DNA of 45,181 nt from an uncultured Erysipelotrichaceae bacterium (GTDB taxonomy: Bacteria > Bacillota_I > Bacilli_A > Erysipelotrichales > Erysipelotrichaceae): assembly GCA_902786245.1 (NCBI GenBank), contig CADABS010000020.1, positions 1-45,181 on the forward strand. Reading direction: 5' to 3'. Below are positions 21,833 through 32,408 of the stretch, in pieces. Each line of letters opens with the position of its first letter. The stretch's first letter is position 1. A program made the translations under genes and the position numbers. The notes beneath the pieces were generated by a model. It made no database searches and was not told the origin of the DNA. It saw only the letters and a program-made list of their open reading frames with translations.

Positions 21833-22822
21833 ATGAAAGAACGACTGATACAGATCCTGCGGGCTGCCAATGCCTGGAATGTGACGGATATCCATTTCGG
21901 CATCTCCCAGAACAGCGGCAGGAAAGTAACGATTGAAATGCGGGTGGACGGCAGGATCCGCCAGCTGAAAGAAGATCCGGATGATCTGCGCCTGTTTCAC
22001 TATCTGATGTACCGGGCTGATCTCGATCTGTCCGGGGCGATGGAGCCGCAGACGGGACGCTTTGAGGAAACGGTCGACGGCAGGAGGATGTCGCTGCGCT
22101 TTGCCCTGGTATCGAGCTATTACGTCACCAGCGGGGTGCTGCGCATTCTCAACAGCAGGGATTCTCTGCAGGTAAGGGCACTGACCCATGATGAGGAAGC
22201 AGCGGACTGGCTGCAGGACATTACTGCTCATCCCTGCGGTCTGTTCATCCTGTCCGGACCGACTTCTTCGGGCAAGACGACTTCGCTGTATACGATCCTC
22301 AACGCGGCGGAAGATAAAAGGATCTTTACCCTGGAAGATCCGGTGGAAGTCGTCAATGAGCGCTATGTGCAGCTGCAGGTCAATGAGAAGCGCCATTTTA
22401 CCTATGATGACGGCATCCGTCAGCTGATGCGCCATGACCCGGACATCATCATGATCGGTGAGGTCCGCGACAGTACGACGGCCGCAATGGCTGTGCGCTC
22501 GGCATTGACCGGCCATCTGGTCGTGACCAGTCTGCACAGCTTCAGCTGCGTCAGTGCCATTCACCGGATGATGGATCTCGGGGTGCAGGAATACCAGCTG
22601 CGCGATGTGCTCACCGGCATCAGCTGCCAGCGTCTGTTCGACTGTCCCCAGGGCGGACGGACAGGAATCTATGAATGGATGGACAGAAAGGAGATCGGAT
22701 ATTACTTCGACCATGGCAGAACATCGGAAAACTTCAGGCCTCTGGCGGAAAGCATCCGTCAGGAACGCGCAGCCGGGACGATCGATGCAGATCAGGCAGA
22801 AGCGGAACTGGCTGGATCGTGA
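21833..22822 (+). CDS. comGA: Competence pilus assembly ATPase ComGA
   Basis: Type II secretion / type IV pilus ATPase of the GspE-PilB superfamily that powers assembly of the transformation pilus; peripheral on the inner membrane face. 329 residues, the short ComGA form. N-terminal domain ends near VLRILNS; Walker A GPTSSGKTT (about 142-150), the Asp box TLEDPVE (about 164-170), Walker B DIIMIGEVRD (about 203-212) and the His box VTSLHSFS. No zinc tetra-cysteine motif is seen. GGAGG lies 7 bases before the ATG. First gene of the comG operon; overlaps comGB by 38 bases. Confidence 0.95.
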   Translation: MKERLIQILRAANAWNVTDIHFGISQNSGRKVTIEMRVDGRIRQLKEDPDDLRLFHYLMYRADLDLSGAMEPQTGRFEETVDGRRMSLRFALVSSYYVTSGVLRILNSRDSLQVRALTHDEEAADWLQDITAHPCGLFILSGPTSSGKTTSLYTILNAAEDKRIFTLEDPVEVVNERYVQLQVNEKRHFTYDDGIRQLMRHDPDIIMIGEVRDSTTAAMAVRSALTGHLVVTSLHSFSCVSAIHRMMDLGVQEYQLRDVLTGISCQRLFDCPQGGRTGIYEWMDRKEIGYYFDHGRTSENFRPLAESIRQERAAGTIDADQAEAELAGS

Positions 22823-23783
22823 AACCTGCGAAAGTCTCAATGCACTGCTGAATAATGGCTTTGCCCTGCGCCAGGCCGCAGAGATCCTTGCGGACCGCAG
22901 AAATGAAGCGGTATTCCAGCAGATCCTTGCCCGTCTGGAAAACGGCGAAGAGGCAGAGTCTTTTCTGCATCTGTACTTATGCACAGACCTGCGTCCGGTA
23001 TTTTCAATCTATGTCCGCTATATGCCGCTTGCCGATGCGCTTGATCTTTCGGTGAAGCTGACAAAGCAGGATGGCGAACAGAAAAGAATCCTGATGAAAG
23101 GCATCTTCTATCCGCTCGGACTATTGGCTTCGTCCATGGCCGGCATCCTGCTGTTCTGCCGTTTCATCCTGCCGGTCATGCTGGGACTGATGGAGAGCTT
23201 CCATATGGAACAGGGCGGCTTTGCGCTGATGGCCGTATGGATCCGCACCGTTACCTATGCATCTGCGGGTCTGTTTCTGGTACTGGCTATCTGCACGGCA
23301 GTTCTGACTGATCGTAAAAGAATTGCCCGGACCTACCGGTTTCTGGCCATTCATTTTCCTGCCAGTCTGCCGGTCCAGTATGCATCCCGCGATTTTACCA
23401 GATTCTATCTGGAATGCCTGCGCAGAGGCCTATCCACCCGGCGGATCCTGCAGATGCTTGCAGGTCTTGAAACAAAGCCGTTAGTCGCCTGTATTGCGGA
23501 AGAAGCAGACCGGCTGCTTGATGAAGGCGATGCCTTTGAAGAAGCGGTGAAACATGCCGGCATGGAACCGGCTCTGGCCGGATTCTTCCGGATTGCTGTC
23601 TATGCCGGAGACTGCGAAGGGATCCTGGAAGGGTATCTGGCCATGTTCAAAGTCCGGACCGAGAAGCAGATCAGAAACTTCTCCCGGATCGTACAGGCGA
23701 TTTCCTACGGCGCAGTCGGACTGATGATCGTTCTTGTCTATTCGGTGCTGATGGTGCCGATGCGCATGCTTTCCGAAATCTGA
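22785..23783 (+). CDS. comGB: Competence pilus inner-membrane platform protein ComGB
   Basis: GspF/PilC-type polytopic platform protein that partners ComGA. 332 residues with three strongly hydrophobic segments: about 107-130, 150-175 and near the C-terminus (about 305-328), each following a cytoplasmic four-helix domain in the usual duplicated arrangement. ATG 22785 was chosen as the first start that keeps the N-terminal domain (RQKRNWLDRETCESLNALL); it lies inside comGA with only a weak ribosome site, so coupling to comGA translation is likely. Longer in-frame readings to 22605 would be within comGA and are rejected. Confidence 0.88.
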   Translation: MQIRQKRNWLDRETCESLNALLNNGFALRQAAEILADRRNEAVFQQILARLENGEEAESFLHLYLCTDLRPVFSIYVRYMPLADALDLSVKLTKQDGEQKRILMKGIFYPLGLLASSMAGILLFCRFILPVMLGLMESFHMEQGGFALMAVWIRTVTYASAGLFLVLAICTAVLTDRKRIARTYRFLAIHFPASLPVQYASRDFTRFYLECLRRGLSTRRILQMLAGLETKPLVACIAEEADRLLDEGDAFEEAVKHAGMEPALAGFFRIAVYAGDCEGILEGYLAMFKVRTEKQIRNFSRIVQAISYGAVGLMIVLVYSVLMVPMRMLSEI

Positions 23784-23796
23784 AAGGAGAGGACAG

Positions 23797-24105
23797 ATGA
23801 AAAAGAAAAAAAGCAGAAAAGGGTTCACGCTTCTGGAGATGACGATCGTCGTGCTGATCATTTCAGTGCTGTTTCTTCTGACGGTGCCGAATATCCAGAA
23901 GACGCTGGAAATCGTATCTTCCAAAGGATGCAAGGCAATCGAAAAAGTCGCAGATGCGGCCATCCTTGAATACAAACTGGAATACGGCAGTTTCCCCGGC
24001 AGCGTTTCCGATCTGGTATCGGCCGGCCTGCTTTCCGAGGAACAATTGACCTGCGACGGGTCGCGGAATCTAGTGATCATTGACGGACAGGCATATGTCG
24101 AATAA
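23797..24105 (+). CDS. comGC: Major competence pseudopilin ComGC
   Basis: 102-residue class III prepilin: basic leader, then the prepilin-peptidase site KGFTLLEM (cut between Gly and Phe, Glu at +5), then a hydrophobic helix TIVVLIISVLFLLTV. Two cysteines (GCKAIEK and LTCDG) could form the disulphide known for ComGC. AAAGGAGAGG precedes the ATG. It is the main subunit of the DNA-uptake pilus. Overlaps comGD by 11 bases. Confidence 0.95.
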   Translation: MKKKKSRKGFTLLEMTIVVLIISVLFLLTVPNIQKTLEIVSSKGCKAIEKVADAAILEYKLEYGSFPGSVSDLVSAGLLSEEQLTCDGSRNLVIIDGQAYVE

Positions 24106-24424
24106 GGGATTCACATTGCTGGAAATGTGCACGGTGATGCTTGTGATTTCCATCATGAGCCTGACCGTACTGCCGGCCGGTACCTTTCAGGAAGGACAGT
24201 GGTATACCTTTGCGGACAGATATTTCCATGCCCAGGCACAGGCCATGGCGCAAAGCAGAGAAACAGCCTTCAGCGATGAAAGCGGCGAAGTGCCTCTGAT
24301 CCGCTTCAATCACAAAGGCAATGTTTCCCAGGCGATGACCCTGACGATGGGGAAGAAAGGACGCAGCGTGATCATTGAACTGGGCGGCGGCAGGCTGGTG
24401 TATCCGGAAAGGAGAAACAGATGA
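24095..24424 (+). CDS. comGD: Minor competence pseudopilin ComGD
   Basis: 109 residues starting MSNKGFTLLEMCTV, a very short leader followed by the prepilin cleavage site and hydrophobic helix VMLVISIMSLTVL. The mature domain is short and ends in basic residues. ATG 24095 is chosen to give a leader of normal length; 24080 is an in-frame alternative. Overlaps comGC upstream and the next gene by 4 bases (ATGA). Confidence 0.85.
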   Translation: MSNKGFTLLEMCTVMLVISIMSLTVLPAGTFQEGQWYTFADRYFHAQAQAMAQSRETAFSDESGEVPLIRFNHKGNVSQAMTLTMGKKGRSVIIELGGGRLVYPERRNR

Positions 24425-24627
24425 TCCTGAGCGATGCCCTGGTATCGGCAGCGGTAACGCTGATTGCGGCCGTGATGATATCCGCCTGTCTGCAGGTACA
24501 GGGCAATATGTACAGGATCAGCGGCAGAGTCCTGCAGGAAATCGAAGAAACAGCAGCGCAGTCGCTGCGGGAGACAGAGATATGCGAAGGCGTCTGTACC
24601 ATGGACGAAGAGGATATGCAACCCTGA
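24421..24627 (+). CDS. comGE: Putative ComGE-type minor pseudopilin, leaderless
   Basis: 68 residues: hydrophobic N-terminus MILSDALVSAAVTLIAAVMISACLQ, then a short helical acidic domain. Position and size suit ComGE, but no Gly-Phe cleavage site precedes the helix. If the initiator Met is taken as residue 1, Asp sits at +5 where pseudopilins have Glu, as if the gene encodes an already mature pseudopilin. The start overlaps comGD (ATGA). Homology is by position and pattern only. Confidence 0.6.
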   Translation: MILSDALVSAAVTLIAAVMISACLQVQGNMYRISGRVLQEIEETAAQSLRETEICEGVCTMDEEDMQP

Positions 24628-25112
24628 GCGGTGTGCTTGCGGCGCTGCTGATCGTTTCGATCCTGATGCCGGTGCTGATCATCTGTGCCGGCAGTGCTTC
24701 AAAACTGCTGGAACATGATGAGAGAGTCCAGGATGAGATCGCAATGGGACAGCTGCGGCGGATCTTTCTGCTTGCCTATGACACACAGATCAGCAGTACG
24801 CAGATCGGTTTTACCTATCAGGGCCGGCAGATGCGGCTGTCCTGTGTCAACGGAAGTCTGATCGTCCAGCCCGGCACCTGGATCTTTCTGACGGATCTCG
24901 ACAGCTGTTCATTCTTCATGGAAGATGAAATCGTTTATGTCCGCGCCATGCGGGAAGGAGAGACATCCGATTATGTTCTGTACAGACAGCCGCAGAGGCT
25001 TTATCAGCGCGCCGTTTCTGGCCGTGTTCCTGTTCCTTTCGATGGTATGCGCCTGCTTTGCGCAGAATATGCAGCTGCGCGCACAGACCTGGGCCGATCT
25101 GCAGAAACATAA
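24582..25112 (+). CDS. comGF: ComGF-like minor pseudopilin
   Basis: 176 residues: basic leader MRRRLYHGRRG, possible cleavage before Tyr (RGYATLSGVLAALLI), hydrophobic helix, then a beta-rich domain with Cys pairs (LSCVNG, DSCSFF) and FLTDLDSCSF. Glu at +5 is replaced. The position between ComGE- and ComGG-like genes supports ComGF. It overlaps comGE by 46 bases and the next gene by 140 bases in another frame. Its last 47 residues (RQPQRLYQRAV onward) lie wholly in the overlap and look less like folded protein, so they may be an extension beyond an ancestral stop. Confidence 0.65.
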   Translation: MRRRLYHGRRGYATLSGVLAALLIVSILMPVLIICAGSASKLLEHDERVQDEIAMGQLRRIFLLAYDTQISSTQIGFTYQGRQMRLSCVNGSLIVQPGTWIFLTDLDSCSFFMEDEIVYVRAMREGETSDYVLYRQPQRLYQRAVSGRVPVPFDGMRLLCAEYAAARTDLGRSAET

Positions 25113-25356
25113 CGAACTGTTTCTCGAGGAGAGCGCTGTCATCGGCGCTCTCCGCTGCATGATCGAAAAAGATGCACTGCAGGAAGGACCGTTTCAGGCC
25201 GGTTCTTATGAATGCACGCTGCAGATCAGCGGCCAGATTCTGTTTGTAACGGTATATACCTATCCCTGCGACAGCTTTGAGATCCGCATGGATCCGGACT
25301 CGAAACAGCTTTACGAATGTACTGCGCTGCGCGCCATAAAGGCATACGGCAATTGA
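24973..25356 (+). CDS. comGG: ComGG-like minor pseudopilin
   Basis: 127 residues from ATG 24973, with AAGGAGAG about 12 bases upstream (inside comGF). Leader MFCTDSRRGF with a possible cleavage after Gly, then hydrophobic ISAPFLAVFLFLSMVCACF and a small mixed domain. As in other ComGG proteins the Glu+5 is missing and Pro is present. It ends at the efp promoter, whose -35 overlaps its stop codon. Family assignment rests mainly on its position as last gene of comG. Confidence 0.65.
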   Translation: MFCTDSRRGFISAPFLAVFLFLSMVCACFAQNMQLRAQTWADLQKHNELFLEESAVIGALRCMIEKDALQEGPFQAGSYECTLQISGQILFVTVYTYPCDSFEIRMDPDSKQLYECTALRAIKAYGN

Positions 25357-25407: not shown

Positions 25408-25965
25408 ATGGTTATTGTAAATGATTTGAAACCGGGCATGACCTTTGAGAACGAAGGCAACATCCTGACAGTTCTGAATATTGATCATAACAAGACGGCA
25501 ATGCGTCAGATGATCATCAAGGTCAAAGTCAGAAATGTCCGCACAGGCGTCATCAACGAAATCTCATTCACGGGCGGCGACAAAGTCGAGCTGGCGCATC
25601 TGGAAAGAAGACAGATGAATTACCTGTATGATGACGGAACAAATCTCGTCTTCATGGATGAGAATTCCGGAGATCAGGTTGAGGTTCCGAAAGACAGGCT
25701 TGACTGGGAAATGAAATTCCTGAAGTTCAACGAGTCCGTAAACATCTCAATGCTGGAAAATGAAGTACTCGGCATCATCCTGCCGGATAAGGTAGAGCTG
25801 CAGATCGTCGAATGCGAACAGGCGGTCAAGGGCGATACAGCGACTTCCGCATCAAAGAACGCAGTACTGGAAACAGGACTGGAAATCAAGGTACCGCTGT
25901 TTATCCAGAACGGGGAAACGGTCATCGTTTCCACAGCGGATGGAAAGTACTCTGGAAGAGCGTAA
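25408..25965 (+). CDS. efp: Elongation factor P with a non-canonical tip (Met32)
   Basis: EF-P rescues ribosomes stalled at proline stretches. 185 residues, with the normal three-domain layout: VNDLKPGMTFENEGN, VRNVRTGVINEISFTGGDKV, middle domain with YLYDDGTNLVFMD, and C-terminal OB domain ending SGRA. The conserved loop that reads H-x-K-P-G-K-G in B. subtilis aligns without gaps to HNKTAMRQM here, so residue 32, normally a modified Lys or Arg, is Met (codon 25501-25503) and the PGKG turn is lost. Thus the known lysine or arginine modification cannot occur at that residue. GGAGTG precedes the ATG. It has its own promoter and follows comG as in the broader Bacillus layout. Confidence 0.93.
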   Translation: MVIVNDLKPGMTFENEGNILTVLNIDHNKTAMRQMIIKVKVRNVRTGVINEISFTGGDKVELAHLERRQMNYLYDDGTNLVFMDENSGDQVEVPKDRLDWEMKFLKFNESVNISMLENEVLGIILPDKVELQIVECEQAVKGDTATSASKNAVLETGLEIKVPLFIQNGETVIVSTADGKYSGRA

Positions 25966-26025: not shown

Positions 26026-27516
26026 ATGAGCAGAACATATTCCGGCGCGAAAAGAAAGCGTTCCAATACACCTGCGGCAGCCCGCAGGCGCGCAGTGGAA
26101 TTCAGACATGCAAGATATGCGCACAAACCTGCGGCACAGCCGGTGATCCGGCCGCAGTCCTTTGGTATTTCCGCCGATGAACCGACAGTACCTGCAACAG
26201 ATACAGTGACGATCCTGACGGAAAGAGCAGAAAAAAATCCGCTGGAAGATAAATTTGCAGGATTCATGGCAAAGGCGGCATCGCTGTTCAATATCGTCAA
26301 AGACAAGATCATCGATATGATCGAACCGGAAGAAAACCGGGAAGATACCGCTGCCGTACCGGAAGAAACAGAAGAAGCCGGTGAACTCCTGAAGAATCTG
26401 ACCGATGAGATTCCTTCGGAAGAACAGGCAGAAGAAACAATCAGAGAAGAAGCAGCACCGTTCCCTGAAGAAGAACCGGAAACTGCAGAACCTGCCGTCA
26501 TTGAAGAAGAAACAGAAACAGCAGTACTGGAAGAAACACCTGCCGAAGAAGCTGAAACTGAAACAGTATCTGAAGAAGAACCGGCTGTAGCAGAAGAAAC
26601 AGCAGCTCCGGAAGAGGAAGTACCTGCTGTAACTGCAGAACCTGCTGAAGAAACTGAAACCGCTATTCAGGAAGAAGTTTCTGCTGAAACAGCATCTGAA
26701 GAAGAACCTGCTGAGACAGCAGAAGAAACAGCGGTACAGGAAGAAACACCTGCCGAAGAGACTGAAACAGAAACAGTTGCTGAAGAAACTGCTGTGACTG
26801 AAGAAGAACCGGACAGATCATTGTCGGGACGCTGGCAGGCATTCCGGGCTGAAAGACGCAGAAAGAAGAATGCAGTTCTGGATGCGATCATTGATACGCC
26901 GCGGTCCAATATCTTCCAGATGATCCTGCGTCCGGGTCTGGCGATGACAAAATCCGGATCGGTGGATTATCCGGTGCTGAGCCAGGTATCGGTATGCATC
27001 GTCAATATCTTCAAATGGGGAGCTTTCGGTACATTTATCGCGATGGTCATCCGTTCTCTGATCGAAGTATATCCGTTCTCAATCGCCCAGATGAATTTCA
27101 CTAAGACAGCAAGTCTGGCCGCAAGGATCGGTGTATTCGGACTGGCAGCGGAGTATTTCTCCTATATCCTGATCTCGACTGTCTGCGGACTGCTGCGGAG
27201 GCAGCTGTCTCTGGCCAAGATCCTCGATGTGCAGGCAAGATCTGCCGTGGCTGTCGGAGCGATGTTTGTCATTGCCTGTGTGCTGCTGAGCAGAAACCTG
27301 GCAGTCAGCTGTGCAGTATTCATTACCGGCGCAATGCTCGGTCTGATGCTGAAGGGATACGGCTTGGACCTTGTCATGAAAGACCGTTTCTCGAAGACAC
27401 AGCAGCTGTTCCTGACAGCGGTATGCATCATGCTGTGCGTGATCGCATCGTTCGCATATTTCCGCTTTGTCAGCGGCGATATCGTGCGGATCTTCGAAAA
27501 TATTCTGAATATCTGA
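26026..27516 (+). CDS. Membrane protein with long Glu-rich low-complexity arm
   Basis: 496 residues in three parts. Residues 1-60 are basic and Ala/Arg-rich (YSGAKRKRSN, AARRRAVEFRHARYAHK). Residues about 105-265 are a near-continuous acidic stretch of Glu/Thr/Ala/Pro with imperfect units such as EETPAEE and EEPAETAEE. The last 200 residues form a membrane domain with about five or six hydrophobic segments (from NIFQMILRPGLAM, through WGAFGTFIAMVI, SAVAVGAMFVIACVLL, to LTAVCIMLCVIASFAYF). It resembles Yip1-type or zinc-ribbon-associated membrane domains only loosely; I do not recognise it. GAAAGGGG lies before the ATG; own terminator follows. Confidence 0.75.
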   Translation: MSRTYSGAKRKRSNTPAAARRRAVEFRHARYAHKPAAQPVIRPQSFGISADEPTVPATDTVTILTERAEKNPLEDKFAGFMAKAASLFNIVKDKIIDMIEPEENREDTAAVPEETEEAGELLKNLTDEIPSEEQAEETIREEAAPFPEEEPETAEPAVIEEETETAVLEETPAEEAETETVSEEEPAVAEETAAPEEEVPAVTAEPAEETETAIQEEVSAETASEEEPAETAEETAVQEETPAEETETETVAEETAVTEEEPDRSLSGRWQAFRAERRRKKNAVLDAIIDTPRSNIFQMILRPGLAMTKSGSVDYPVLSQVSVCIVNIFKWGAFGTFIAMVIRSLIEVYPFSIAQMNFTKTASLAARIGVFGLAAEYFSYILISTVCGLLRRQLSLAKILDVQARSAVAVGAMFVIACVLLSRNLAVSCAVFITGAMLGLMLKGYGLDLVMKDRFSKTQQLFLTAVCIMLCVIASFAYFRFVSGDIVRIFENILNI

Positions 27517-27597: not shown

Positions 27598-27761
27598 CTC
27601 AGGGCTGGGTGAAATTCCCGACCGGCGGTATACCCCGCGAGCCGTTTGGCTGAACCGGTCTGATTCCGGTGGCGACAGTAAAGTCTGGATGGAAGAGATG
27701 TTTATCTTTATTCTGTATTGCAGTTTACCCGGAGGTTTTTATCACAGAGCCTCCGTTTTTT
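27598..27761 (+). ncRNA. FMN riboswitch (RFN element) with terminator
   Basis: The conserved RFN blocks are present in order: CAGGGCTGGGTGAAATTCCCGACCGGCGGT-type start (from about 27600), CCCCGCGAGCC, then CTGAACCGGTCTGATTCCGGTGGCGACAGT and AAAGTCTGGATGGAAGAGA (to about 27698). The expression platform holds CGGAGG (27730-27735) pairing with CCTCCG (27750-27755) followed by T's. FMN binding is expected to switch off ribU by termination. Confidence 0.95.
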
Positions 27762-27788
27762 ATACGGGAGGCGAAAGGAGAAAACCAG

Positions 27789-28391
27789 ATGACAACAAAA
27801 ACAGGTACATTTTCAACAAACATGATCGCCAAAATCGCTATGCTCTCCGCTGTCGCATTCGTACTGATGCTGATTGAATTCCCGATTCCTGTCGCACCGA
27901 GCTTCTACAAGCTTGATTTCTCGGAAGCTGCCGTACTGATCGGCGGATTCGCACTCGGACCTGCTGCGGCGGTATGCATCGAAGCGACCAAGGTCGTTCT
28001 GAATCTTCTGTTCACCGGAACGATGACGATGTATGTCGGTGAGTTTGCCAATTTCCTGATCGGCTGTGCATTATGCGTTCCGGCTTCGATCATGTACAGA
28101 AACAACAAGAGCCGGGCAACGGCGCTGAAGGGAATGGCTGTCGGTACGGTCGCAATGGCTGCGGCGGGCGTCATTCTGAATTACTTCCTGCTGCTGCCGG
28201 CGTATGTATCGATTGCCAAGTTCCCGATGGAAGCGATCCTCGGGGCAGGGCAGGCGATCTTCCCGTTCATCACGAACAAGTTCACGTTTGTGCTTGCCTG
28301 TGTAACGCCGTTCAATCTGATCAAGGGTGTCCTGGTCAGTGCGGTGACACTGATTCTGTACAAGCATGTATCGCCGCTGCTGCACAAATAA
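27789..28391 (+). CDS. ribU: Riboflavin ECF transporter substrate-binding subunit RibU
   Basis: S component of an energy-coupling-factor transporter, about six membrane helices, 200 residues. Typical features: an N-terminal basic/Thr-rich stretch, MLSAVAFVLMLIEFPIPVAPSFYKLDFSEAAVLIGGFALGP (substrate-facing region), and KVVLNLLFTGTMTMYVGEFANFLIG. ATG 27789 has AAAGGAG upstream; a longer in-frame reading from 27669 would translate the riboswitch and is rejected. The FMN riboswitch upstream fixes riboflavin as the substrate. The ECF ATPases and T component are not in the window. Confidence 0.96.
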   Translation: MTTKTGTFSTNMIAKIAMLSAVAFVLMLIEFPIPVAPSFYKLDFSEAAVLIGGFALGPAAAVCIEATKVVLNLLFTGTMTMYVGEFANFLIGCALCVPASIMYRNNKSRATALKGMAVGTVAMAAAGVILNYFLLLPAYVSIAKFPMEAILGAGQAIFPFITNKFTFVLACVTPFNLIKGVLVSAVTLILYKHVSPLLHK

Positions 28392-28398
28392 GCTTCAG

Positions 28399-28420
28399 AG
28401 CCGGATTTTCCGGCTTTTTT
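28399..28420 (+). terminator. Terminator after ribU
   Basis: AGCCGG (28399-28404), loop ATTTT, CCGGCT (28410-28415), then T's. Confidence 0.85.
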
Positions 28421-28452
28421 GTCGGGCTCCTGCGCTTGCGGCAGATTCCTTA

Positions 28453-28461
28453 TGGTATAAT
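28453..28461 (+). promoter_or_regulatory. Extended -10 promoter
   Basis: TGG followed by TATAAT (28456-28461); no good -35 at the standard distance. Confidence 0.5.
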
Positions 28462-28484
28462 AAAACGGATTATGGAGATACAGT

Positions 28485-29393
28485 ATGGCAAATCTTTCAC
28501 GGACAGAAAAATACAAGGAGCTTCGCGATAAGCTCCAGCACGATAACGGATCCGAACTCAGCACCAGAGAACTGTCCCGTTTTGAAAAGCGCCTGAATCA
28601 TATCGATGCGGAAAACTTTGCCGCTCCGAAAGAGTATCAGGAGGAACACGAGGCGGTTCACGGCCGCAAGGCACCGGCAGAATCAGTGATGCCGGAAACA
28701 AAGCCCGAACCGAAACCGGCGGAACCGGGTTTCGATTTCAGTTCGCTGTTTGAAGACAATGAAAATGACAGCGCTGCCGACAATGATTTCCTGGATCAGT
28801 ATATCCGGGAGGTCAAGCAGTACAATATCGATCAGGGCAATGCCCTCAGCGAGAACACGAGTCTGAATATTCTGCGCCAGATGGGAAATCTACCCCAGAG
28901 CAGCCAGACTTCTGCACCGCTGCGTCCGTATCCTGCGGAAAAGCCTGCACCGGTACAGAAAAAGCCGGAGCCGGTGCGTCAGGATACAGCGGATATCCCG
29001 TTTACCCGGCCTGCACCCAAACCGCAGCCCAAGCCGCAGGTGAAGCAGGAACAGACAGACGAACTGCCTGTGCTGAAGCCGATCACGGCGGATTCTTCGA
29101 CGATGTCGCGGGATGATATCATGGCGGAGGTGCAGAATCTTGTGAACAATGCCAAGCCGGGCCATCAGGCCCCGCCGGCAAAGCAGGAGGATGATACAAG
29201 GCGTCAGCTGCTCAATGAGACGACCCAGATGCGGGCCCAGCTGGATGATTATGAAGACAATCTCAGCGAAGTCAATGACAGGATGCAGCAGACCAATAGG
29301 ATCCTGCATATGGTTCTGATCGTACTGATTGCGGCGATGCTCGTCGTATTCGGTCTGGTTATTTATTTCATCGTATTGGCAAGAGGTGTGTAA
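28485..29393 (+). CDS. Tail-anchored protein with disordered Pro/Lys-rich middle
   Basis: 302 residues. N-terminal helical region (LSRTEKYKELRDKLQHD... ELSRFEKRLNHID), a disordered centre rich in Pro, Lys and Gln (about 60-220), a short coiled-coil segment with MRAQLDDYEDNLSEVNDRMQQTNRIL (about 240-268), and a single C-terminal membrane helix MVLIVLIAAMLVVFGLVIYFIVL (about 272-296). Topology suggests a cytoplasmic protein anchored at its tail. It is 2 bases before cmk and probably heads the cmk-der-gpsA-HD transcript. No family recognised. Confidence 0.8.
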   Translation: MANLSRTEKYKELRDKLQHDNGSELSTRELSRFEKRLNHIDAENFAAPKEYQEEHEAVHGRKAPAESVMPETKPEPKPAEPGFDFSSLFEDNENDSAADNDFLDQYIREVKQYNIDQGNALSENTSLNILRQMGNLPQSSQTSAPLRPYPAEKPAPVQKKPEPVRQDTADIPFTRPAPKPQPKPQVKQEQTDELPVLKPITADSSTMSRDDIMAEVQNLVNNAKPGHQAPPAKQEDDTRRQLLNETTQMRAQLDDYEDNLSEVNDRMQQTNRILHMVLIVLIAAMLVVFGLVIYFIVLARGV

Positions 29394-29395
29394 TT

Positions 29396-30073
29396 ATGAA
29401 AATCAATATTGCGATTGACGGCCCCAGTGCAGCCGGTAAAAGCACGATCGCCAAGCTTCTGGCGAAGAAACTCGGATATGTTCATCTGGATACAGGCGCA
29501 ATGTACCGCTGTACGGCGCTGAAGGCCAAAAAGGAAGGCATTGCCCTGGACGATGAAGCAGGTGTATGCGCAATGCTGGAGAAAACGGATATCACGCTGA
29601 CGCCGGAAGGAGAAGTCTTCCTTGACGGGGAGAATGTATCCGATGCGATCCGTACGGATGAGATCTCACTGGCAGCCAGTGCGGTTTCCAAAATGAAGAA
29701 GGTCAGAGAAGATCTTGTTGCCCGTCAGCAGAAAATGGCAGAGGACAAGGGTTTCATCATGGACGGCAGAGATATCGGCACGGTCGTGCTCAAGGATGCG
29801 GAAGTCAAGATTTTCATGACGGCTTCGGCCGAGGCAAGAGCGATGCGCCGCTACCTGCAGAACAAGGAAAAGGGTCTGCCGCTCAGCAATGTCGAAACGA
29901 TTGCCGAAGAGATCAGACAGCGCGATTACGAAGATACGCACCGTGCGAATTCGCCGCTGCGCAAAGCGGATGACGCAGTCGAACTGGATACTTCGGAACT
30001 GACGATCGATGAAGTCGTCGCAGCGATGATGCGCATTGTGGAACCCGCTATTGCCGGGGAGAAGCAGGGATGA
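29396..30073 (+). CDS. cmk: Cytidylate kinase
   Basis: Phosphorylates CMP and dCMP. 225 residues, with the P-loop [12 protein letters not shown] (about 9-20), the LDTGAMYRC segment, [11 protein letters not shown] (about 122-132), and [27 protein letters not shown] near the lid. AGAGGTG lies in the end of the previous gene. Overlaps der by 4 bases. The cmk-der-gpsA order is the Bacillus one with rpsA-like and fni genes missing. Confidence 0.97.
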
Positions 30074-31383
30074 ATAGTGGAATGATCGCGATCGTAGGCA
30101 GGCCGAATGTCGGCAAGTCTACGATTTTTAACCGGATTGCGGGAGAGAGGGTATCCATCGTCGAAGACACTGCCGGCGTGACCCGCGACCGCATTTACAC
30201 AAAGGGCGAATGGACGGGAAAGACATTCCGTCTGATCGATACCGGGGGTATCCAGCTGGCCGACCAGCCCTATCAGGAAGAGATCCGGGCCCAGGTCCAG
30301 ATTGCGATGCAGGAGGCAGATGTCATCCTGATGGTCACGGACGGCAAGACCGGTCTGACCGATGATGACCGCTATATTGCCTCGATCCTGCAGAGACAGG
30401 ACAAGCCGGTCGTTCTGGCTGTCAATATGATCGATGACCAGAGCCGTCTGATGAATATCTATGAGTTCTACAATCTCGGACTGGGCGATCCGATCGCCTG
30501 TTCCGGTGTTCACGGCATCGGTATCGGCGATGTGCTGGATGCCTGTCTGGCTGCCATGCCCGAGGAAAAGATGGAAGAAGAAAACGAAGGAATCCGGATC
30601 GCTGTCATCGGCGAGCCGAATGTCGGCAAGTCTTCTCTCGTCAATGCCATTCTGAAAGAAGAGCGCTCGATCGTTTCGAATGTCCAGGGAACGACCCGGG
30701 ACGCTGTCGATACGCCGTTTGAATACGACGGAAAGAAATACGTCATCGTCGATACCGCCGGTATCCGCAAGCGGGGCAAGGTCTGGGAATCAATCGAGAA
30801 GTATTCCGTACTGCGGGCAATGACCGCCATTGAACGGTGTGATGTATGTCTGTTCCTGATCGACGGCGAAGCCGGCATCCGGGAACAGGACAAGCACGTT
30901 GCCGGCTATGCGTCAGAAGCAGGCAAGCCGGTCGTCATCGTCGTCAATAAATGGGACGCCGTGGAAAAAGACGATAAGACCATGAACCGGTTCACGGAAA
31001 AGATCCGCACCGAGTTTGCCTATCTTTCCTATGCGCCGATCGTCTATGTCAGCGCCCTGACGAAGCAGAGAGTCAATACGATCCTGCCGGAAGTCGACCG
31101 AGTCTATGAAAATGCATCGCGGCGGATCCCGACGAACATTCTCAATGAAGTGATCATGGATTCGCAGGTGACCAACCCGGCACCGGCCCGCAACGGCAAG
31201 CGTTTCCGGGTCTACTACGGCACCCAGGTATCGGCCAATCCGCCGACCTTCGTGCTCTCCTGCAACGATCCCAAGCTCATGCATTTCTCCTATCAGAGAT
31301 TCCTGGAGAATACGCTGCGGAATGCCTTTGATCTGGAAGGCACACCGATCCGGATCATTGTCCGCAAGAAGGTGTCGGAATGA
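30070..31383 (+). CDS. der: Ribosome-assembly GTPase Der (EngA)
   Basis: Tandem GTPase needed for 50S subunit maturation. 437 residues. First G domain: GRPNVGKST (about 9-17), [17 protein letters not shown]; second G domain: GEPNVGKSS (about 179-187), [23 protein letters not shown]; then the C-terminal KH-like domain ending IRIIVRKK. Overlaps cmk and gpsA by 4 bases each, indicating coupled translation. Confidence 0.98.
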
Positions 31384-32408
31384 AAACGGCAGTTCTCGGA
31401 ACAGGCAGCTGGGGTACTGCGCTTGCCCAGGTTCTGGCAGATAACGGCCGGGAAGTAATCATGTGGGGCATCAGCAGCGAAGAAGCCGAAGATATTTCGC
31501 TGCGCCACCATAACACAAAGTATTTCGAGGCGCCTGTTCATGAAAATGTAAAGGCAACCTGTGATATTTCCTGTGTTGAGGATGCGGATCTCATCCTCTG
31601 TGCCGTGCCGACGGCAGCCCTGGAATCCGTCATTACGCAGGCGATGGCATATGTCACAAAGCCGGTGATCTGGATCAATGTCGCCAAGGGTTTCCATCCC
31701 ATCAGCCACAAGCGTCTCAGCGTCGTCATTGAAGAAACCGTGCCGGCGGAAAAAAGAAGGGCAGTCGTATCGCTGATCGGACCTTCGCATGCGGAAGAAG
31801 TCATTATCCGCCGGCTGACCGTGATCAATGCGGTATCGGAGAATGAAGAAGCAGCGAAGGAAGTACAGGAGCTCTTCTCCAATTCCTATTTCCGGGTATA
31901 CCGCAATACCGATGTCATCGGGGCGGAGACCGGCGTCGCGCTCAAGAATATCATGGCCATTGCCAGCGGCATTCTCGAAGGCATCGGCCAGGGCGATAAC
32001 GCAAAGGCTGCGCTGATGACCCGGGGTCTTGCCGAGATGACCCGCTATGGCGTGAAGGTCGGGGGAAAGTTTGAAACATTCCTGGGACTCGACGGGGTCG
32101 GCGATCTGATCGTTACCTGCTCCTCCAGACATTCCCGGAACTTCATGGCCGGCTATGCCATCGGCAGAGCCAACAGCGCCGAGCAGTTTCTGAAGGAAAA
32201 CAAAAAGACCGTGGAAGGGATTCCTGCCTGCAAAGCCGTGCATGAAGAGGCGGTGCGCATGGGCCTGGAAATGCCGATCACGGATCAGGTATATGCTGTT
32301 CTGTATGAAGGAAAAGCGCCGAAGGATGCCCTGGAGCAGCTGATGGCGAGAGATCTGCGGGCGGAGGGAGAAACCAACTACAGCCGCAGTCCGGAGGCGG
32401 AGAGTTGA
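31380..32408 (+). CDS. gpsA: NAD(P)-dependent glycerol-3-phosphate dehydrogenase
   Basis: Makes sn-glycerol 3-phosphate from DHAP for phospholipid synthesis. 342 residues; dinucleotide fold [17 protein letters not shown] (about 7-23), IGPSHAEEV, the catalytic-Lys segment [27 protein letters not shown], and the [18 protein letters not shown] substrate loop. Overlaps der upstream and the HD-domain gene downstream by 4 bases. Confidence 0.97.

Follow-up and report, generated by a model that had tools for sequence, protein, structure and literature searches.

A conserved elongation factor P with a methionine tip, the sole EF-P found in many related gut bacteria, probably works without the usual modification

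To act on the P-site tRNA, elongation factor P (EF-P) is commonly held to require a lysine or arginine tip residue, modified in most cases, which normally extends into the catalytic center of the ribosome. The Lys-type EF-P of Bacillus subtilis and Staphylococcus aureus carries 5-aminopentanol, and the Arg-type EF-P of Pseudomonas and Neisseria is rhamnosylated by EarP. Two precedents exist for an unmodified active tip: EfpL (YeiP), an EF-P paralog whose Arg33 was shown to be unmodified in Escherichia coli (PMC11611912), and actinobacterial EF-P, which PMC11381351 singles out as an exception. Methionine tips as such are already known from tallies in the literature. In Volkwein et al. 2019 they make up 0.77% of 1166 EF-P sequences and never co-occur with proline at position -2 (PMC6544042), and they are also mentioned in PMC11611912. 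The main-text passages of the former count Met tips but assign them to no clade, say nothing of sole copies or a partner paralog, and contain no work on the function of a native Met-tip protein. Our search of the open-access literature found no description of a Met-tip clade with an invariant loop, frequent sole-copy status and a Lys-type partner with apparent modification genes, and turned up neither work on how a native Met-tip EF-P functions nor structure, binding or activity data for one.

The window analyzed here is a 45,181-nucleotide contig from an uncultured Erysipelotrichaceae bacterium, and its efp1 gene (positions 25408 to 25965, forward strand) encodes a Met-tip EF-P of 185 residues that begins MVIVNDLKPG. 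The open reading frame is intact, and both domain content (PF08207, PF01132 and PF09285, that is, all three EF-P domains) and a score of 209.5 bits to TIGR00038 (cut-off 185.8) place the product in EF-P. By phmmer, residues 1 to 184 align without a gap to residues 1 to 184 of 6rk3, the best solved EF-P, and Met32 lies opposite the K of PGKG. The β3-β4 loop is of normal length and reads H27 N28 K29 T30 A31 M32 R33 Q34 M35; codons 28 to 35 occupy positions 25489 to 25512, and the ATG of codon 32 occupies positions 25501 to 25503, all on the forward strand and in gap-free alignment with PGKG-type solved EF-Ps. The initial annotation had put Met32 at the modified position and called the rest of the protein intact, and both statements held. 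We conclude that efp1 encodes a genuine, intact EF-P with methionine where a modified lysine or arginine is usual.

The efp1 product differs from each described type. It shares domains and loop length with Lys-type EF-P but has T30-A31-M32 in place of P-G-K, lacking both the tip lysine and the proline at -2. Like Arg-type EF-P it has a seven-residue loop without proline at -2, and its nearest clade relatives are Arg tipped, but its own tip is Met32. EarP (PF10093) was found in 0 of 60 genomes and in 0 of 113 family genomes, in searches for which no control genome has the family, and is likely absent. EfpL resembles the model proposed below for efp1 in working with an unmodified tip, but its loop exceeds seven residues and its tip is arginine, and the efp1 product scored below the cut-offs of both EfpL models, NF003392 and TIGR02178 (128 of 216 bits and 111.5 of 264 bits). 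The Met-tip proteins counted in PMC6544042 share its tip residue and likewise lack proline at -2 (T30 in efp1).

Relatives were gathered from 33 further loci in a genome-contig scan and from whole-genome searches across genus, family, order and class. The tips of 191 distinct EF-Ps were methionine in 82, lysine in 62, arginine in 46 and glutamine in 1. N28, K29, T30, A31, M32 and M35 were 100% conserved in the 82 distinct Met-tip sequences, while Arg33 and Gln34 each occurred in 89%; position 33 was alanine in 9 of the 82 (about 11%) and in some proteins from other families. Lys29 was invariant in Lys-tip and Arg-tip EF-Ps as well. Every extracted genus-mate ortholog had the same Met tip as efp1. 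Synonymous sites in the loop codons varied freely (AAT/AAC, AAA/AAG and all four GCN), and the median pairwise dN/dS was about 0.08 over 26 pairs with usable dS, a rough figure, as the Nei-Gojobori estimates of dS were often near saturation. Thus, efp1 is under strong purifying selection.

A tree built with the loop columns excluded placed efp1 in a clade with the EF-Ps of a sister family, which have Arg tips (NKTARAAA, NKQGRLSG), and with Arg-tip EF-Ps from genomes that read TGA as sense (Mycoplasma type). Loci of the Mycoplasma type and related ones in the clade of the Met type carried the tips SGRGQ, SGRQQ, TGRAQ and QGRGQ (L205, L206, L207 and L208, respectively). Within the family of efp1, that clade holds Met tips, Arg tips and one Gln tip; the last, HNKTAQRQM (L167, genome G334), has Met-tip proteins of the Erysipelothrix-like kind as its sister. 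By pattern search, NKTAMxxM also turned up in four further families of the class (f8, f19, f29 and f30). Four tip-state changes were needed on the careful tree and seven once those families were added, so the count varies with the sample; the deep branches are weakly supported. Met and Arg tips have thus interchanged more than once. The efp1 product is best explained as a probable member of an Arg-tip lineage with methionine at the tip. No PGKG ortholog fell in the efp1 clade; PGKG copies formed another clade. A third, highly divergent EF-P-like protein, about 25% identical, was seen in two genus-mates (L104:959-1528, reverse strand, and G026:C59:33544-34044); the L104 copy, which has an ABC transporter ATPase gene as its neighbor, has a T-P-G-N-E loop, with asparagine at the apparent tip and proline at -2.

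No candidate modifying enzyme is encoded beside efp1. Upstream lies a comG-type operon (21833 to 25356, forward strand) with a ComGA-like T2SSE ATPase (PF00437), a ComGB-like T2SSF protein (PF00482) and small pilin-like open reading frames. Downstream, a conserved forward-strand segment (27669 to 32408) holds an ECF transporter S component, a 302-residue open reading frame and cmk, der and gpsA, the last three named by sequence reading. ComGA-like and ComGC-like genes accompanied efp1 in 28 of 33 long related loci. The chromosomal location of efp1 is stable, and the comG operon is a conserved neighborhood that is no part of the mechanism. Between the two segments, positions 26026 to 27516 encode a protein of 496 residues with a long acidic stretch rich in Glu, Ala and Thr and a hydrophobic C-terminal half; it had no Pfam match and was present in 15 of 33 long related loci. 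EpmA (TIGR00462) scored over the cut-off in 0 of 113 genomes and in 2 of 14 controls, with the E. coli control matching. Mollicutes were reported to have no homologs of the EF-P modification enzymes then known (PMC4014445). The initial annotation had argued that the known enzymes could not act on methionine, and we agree. To our knowledge, their chemistry needs lysine or arginine, and methionine is unsuited to known acylation or glycosylation.

The initial annotation had noted the absence of a PGKG loop, which is correct for efp1 but not for the genome, where the search that it had proposed for another efp and for modification genes turned up a second copy and, beside it, candidate modification genes. 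A second efp (G000:C31:4951-5511) encodes 187 residues with the loop HVKPGKGAA and Lys32; its product is 37% identical to that of efp1 and groups with Lys-type EF-Ps, apart from the efp1 clade. Directly 3' of it lie a FabG-like short-chain reductase gene and, on the opposite strand, a gene for a PF06838 pyridoxal phosphate (PLP) enzyme (501 bits). We take PF06838 to be the domain of B. subtilis YnbB. The reductase scored 176.5 bits against the YmfI model NF047420, under its cut-off of 238, and we infer the label YmfI-like from position and family. In the stretch L105:3528-7549 (G000:C31), the PGKG efp is flanked by a PnuC-like membrane protein, the FabG-like reductase and the PF06838 enzyme. 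The PGKG efp adjoined the reductase in 9 of 9 other genomes of the order, with the PLP enzyme nearby in 8 of the 9, and the recurring set has the look of a modification cassette that either moves between genomes or has been lost repeatedly. Moreover, among 114 family genomes, YnbB was found in 43 of 45 with a second EF-P, as judged from EF-P match counts per genome, but in only 1 of the 69 that lack one (Fisher p about 1e-27, uncorrected for relatedness), and Met-only genomes lacked it. Lys-type EF-P and YnbB are thus gained or lost together. The second efp with its neighbors apparently forms a modification cassette of its own, of the 5-aminopentanol type.

In many relatives, the Met-tip protein is the only EF-P found. 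Among the 39 single-EF-P family genomes that were at least 95% complete and for which the sequence was in hand, the tip was methionine in 25, arginine in 13 and glutamine in 1; incompleteness of metagenome-assembled genomes could hide second copies in some, but hardly in all 25. Three genomes with a sole EF-P are single contigs (G303 and G339, Met; G334, Gln). Two genomes (G276 and G328) matched neither EF-P nor an otherwise universal LysRS-like model, and these negatives probably reflect missing sequence and are uninformative. A known client is kept as well: the IPPPNVTG motif of ValS, which needs EF-P for efficient synthesis, was present in 12 of 12 genomes tested, including Met-only ones and that of efp1. 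B. subtilis and E. coli can live without EF-P, so retention of PPP in ValS does not prove EF-P activity.

What the methionine does can be read in several ways. The assembly that contains the window is a draft in 102 contigs, and an error in sequencing or assembly, or decay of the gene into a pseudogene, might have produced the odd codon. The frame is intact, the loop recurs in tens of independent genomes and dN/dS is low; with loop residues invariant in 82 sequences while synonymous positions vary freely, chance and base error are excluded, and we regard this reading as refuted, with practically no probability left to it. Both of the observations that the initial annotation had named as fatal to its own proposal, a sequencing error and relatives with PGKG, were looked for and failed to appear, the orthologs having Met, Arg or Gln. 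It had also offered Arg33, one residue along, as a substitute tip. That arginine is indeed frequent in Met-tip sequences and is present in efp1, but the loop is of normal length and aligns without gaps, alanine takes the place of Arg33 in the NKTAMAKM proteins of four single-EF-P genomes (G303, G307, G320 and G358) and of further families, and Met32 is never lost where position 33 is alanine. The AMAKM loops rule out Arg33 as the working tip, and we judge such a role very improbable. A modification by an undescribed enzyme elsewhere in the loop, for example on Lys29, or an altered Met32, for example an oxidized one, would be in keeping with the fact that most characterized EF-Ps need modification and that the enzymes have been discovered lineage by lineage. 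The invariance of Lys29 extends to Lys- and Arg-tip EF-Ps, however, and so calls for no explanation peculiar to the Met type. Genes for an enzyme are not linked to efp1, and the chemical unsuitability of methionine also counts against the idea, which we consider improbable, if less so than the Arg33 reading.

A loss of polyproline rescue is harder to set aside, and we hold it unlikely but deserving of real weight. The Met-tip EF-P might keep only a tip-independent function, that is, E-site binding, stabilization of the P-site tRNA and cooperation with the ABCF ATPase YfmR/Uup, and leave polyproline to factors of the YfmR or YebC type or, in genomes that have it, to the PGKG paralog. Published mutants are the strongest arguments against a working Met tip. 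The K32A variant of B. subtilis EF-P does not support polyproline translation but does rescue an efp yfmR double mutant (PMC11381351), and E. coli EF-P K34M is inactive in a polyproline-dependent reporter (PMC6544042). The K34M methionine, however, sat in a PGxG loop, versus NKTAMxxM here, and the residues around the tip matter (PMC6544042). Matches to ABC_tran_CTD, the C-terminal domain of the Uup/YfmR type, occurred in 12 of 12 tested genomes, 9 of them over the cut-off, as this reading would have it, but such matches do not discriminate between readings. Moreover, a tip without a function should drift, whereas none of the 82 distinct sequences departs from Met32 or Met35 and Arg and Gln are the only residues with which the tip alternates. 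Met-only genomes also retain PPP in ValS.

We favor the reading that the Met-tip EF-P works unmodified, with confidence somewhat above even, and the strongest argument for it combines two findings, that Met32 and Met35 never vary and that the protein is often the sole copy. As many related gut bacteria yielded no other EF-P, the protein probably works without the usual modification. The efp1 product would bind the ribosome, Met32 would make contact there, and Pro-Pro bond formation would be aided without any posttranslational modification, by an EF-P with a hydrophobic tip. In genomes like this one, a Lys-tip EF-P with apparent genes for a 5-aminopentanol-type modification would work in parallel. 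Of the three options in the initial annotation, the unmodified factor thus gains most, with no EarP or EpmA found and YnbB tracking the PGKG paralog; Arg33 is left unsupported, given alanine in 9 of 82 sequences in which Met32 and Met35 never change, and another role keeps some weight.

More broadly, an EF-P subfamily spread across several families of one class may promote Pro-Pro bonds with an uncharged, unmodified methionine tip, a proposition that we put forward with slightly less than even confidence. If it is true, EF-P could act without a positive charge, and without a long modified side chain, at the peptidyl-transferase center. A native, conserved and often sole Met-tip EF-P offers a natural experiment on the role of the tip, and genomes that encode both a Met-tip EF-P and a Lys-tip EF-P with apparent modification genes of its own allow the two to be compared within one organism.
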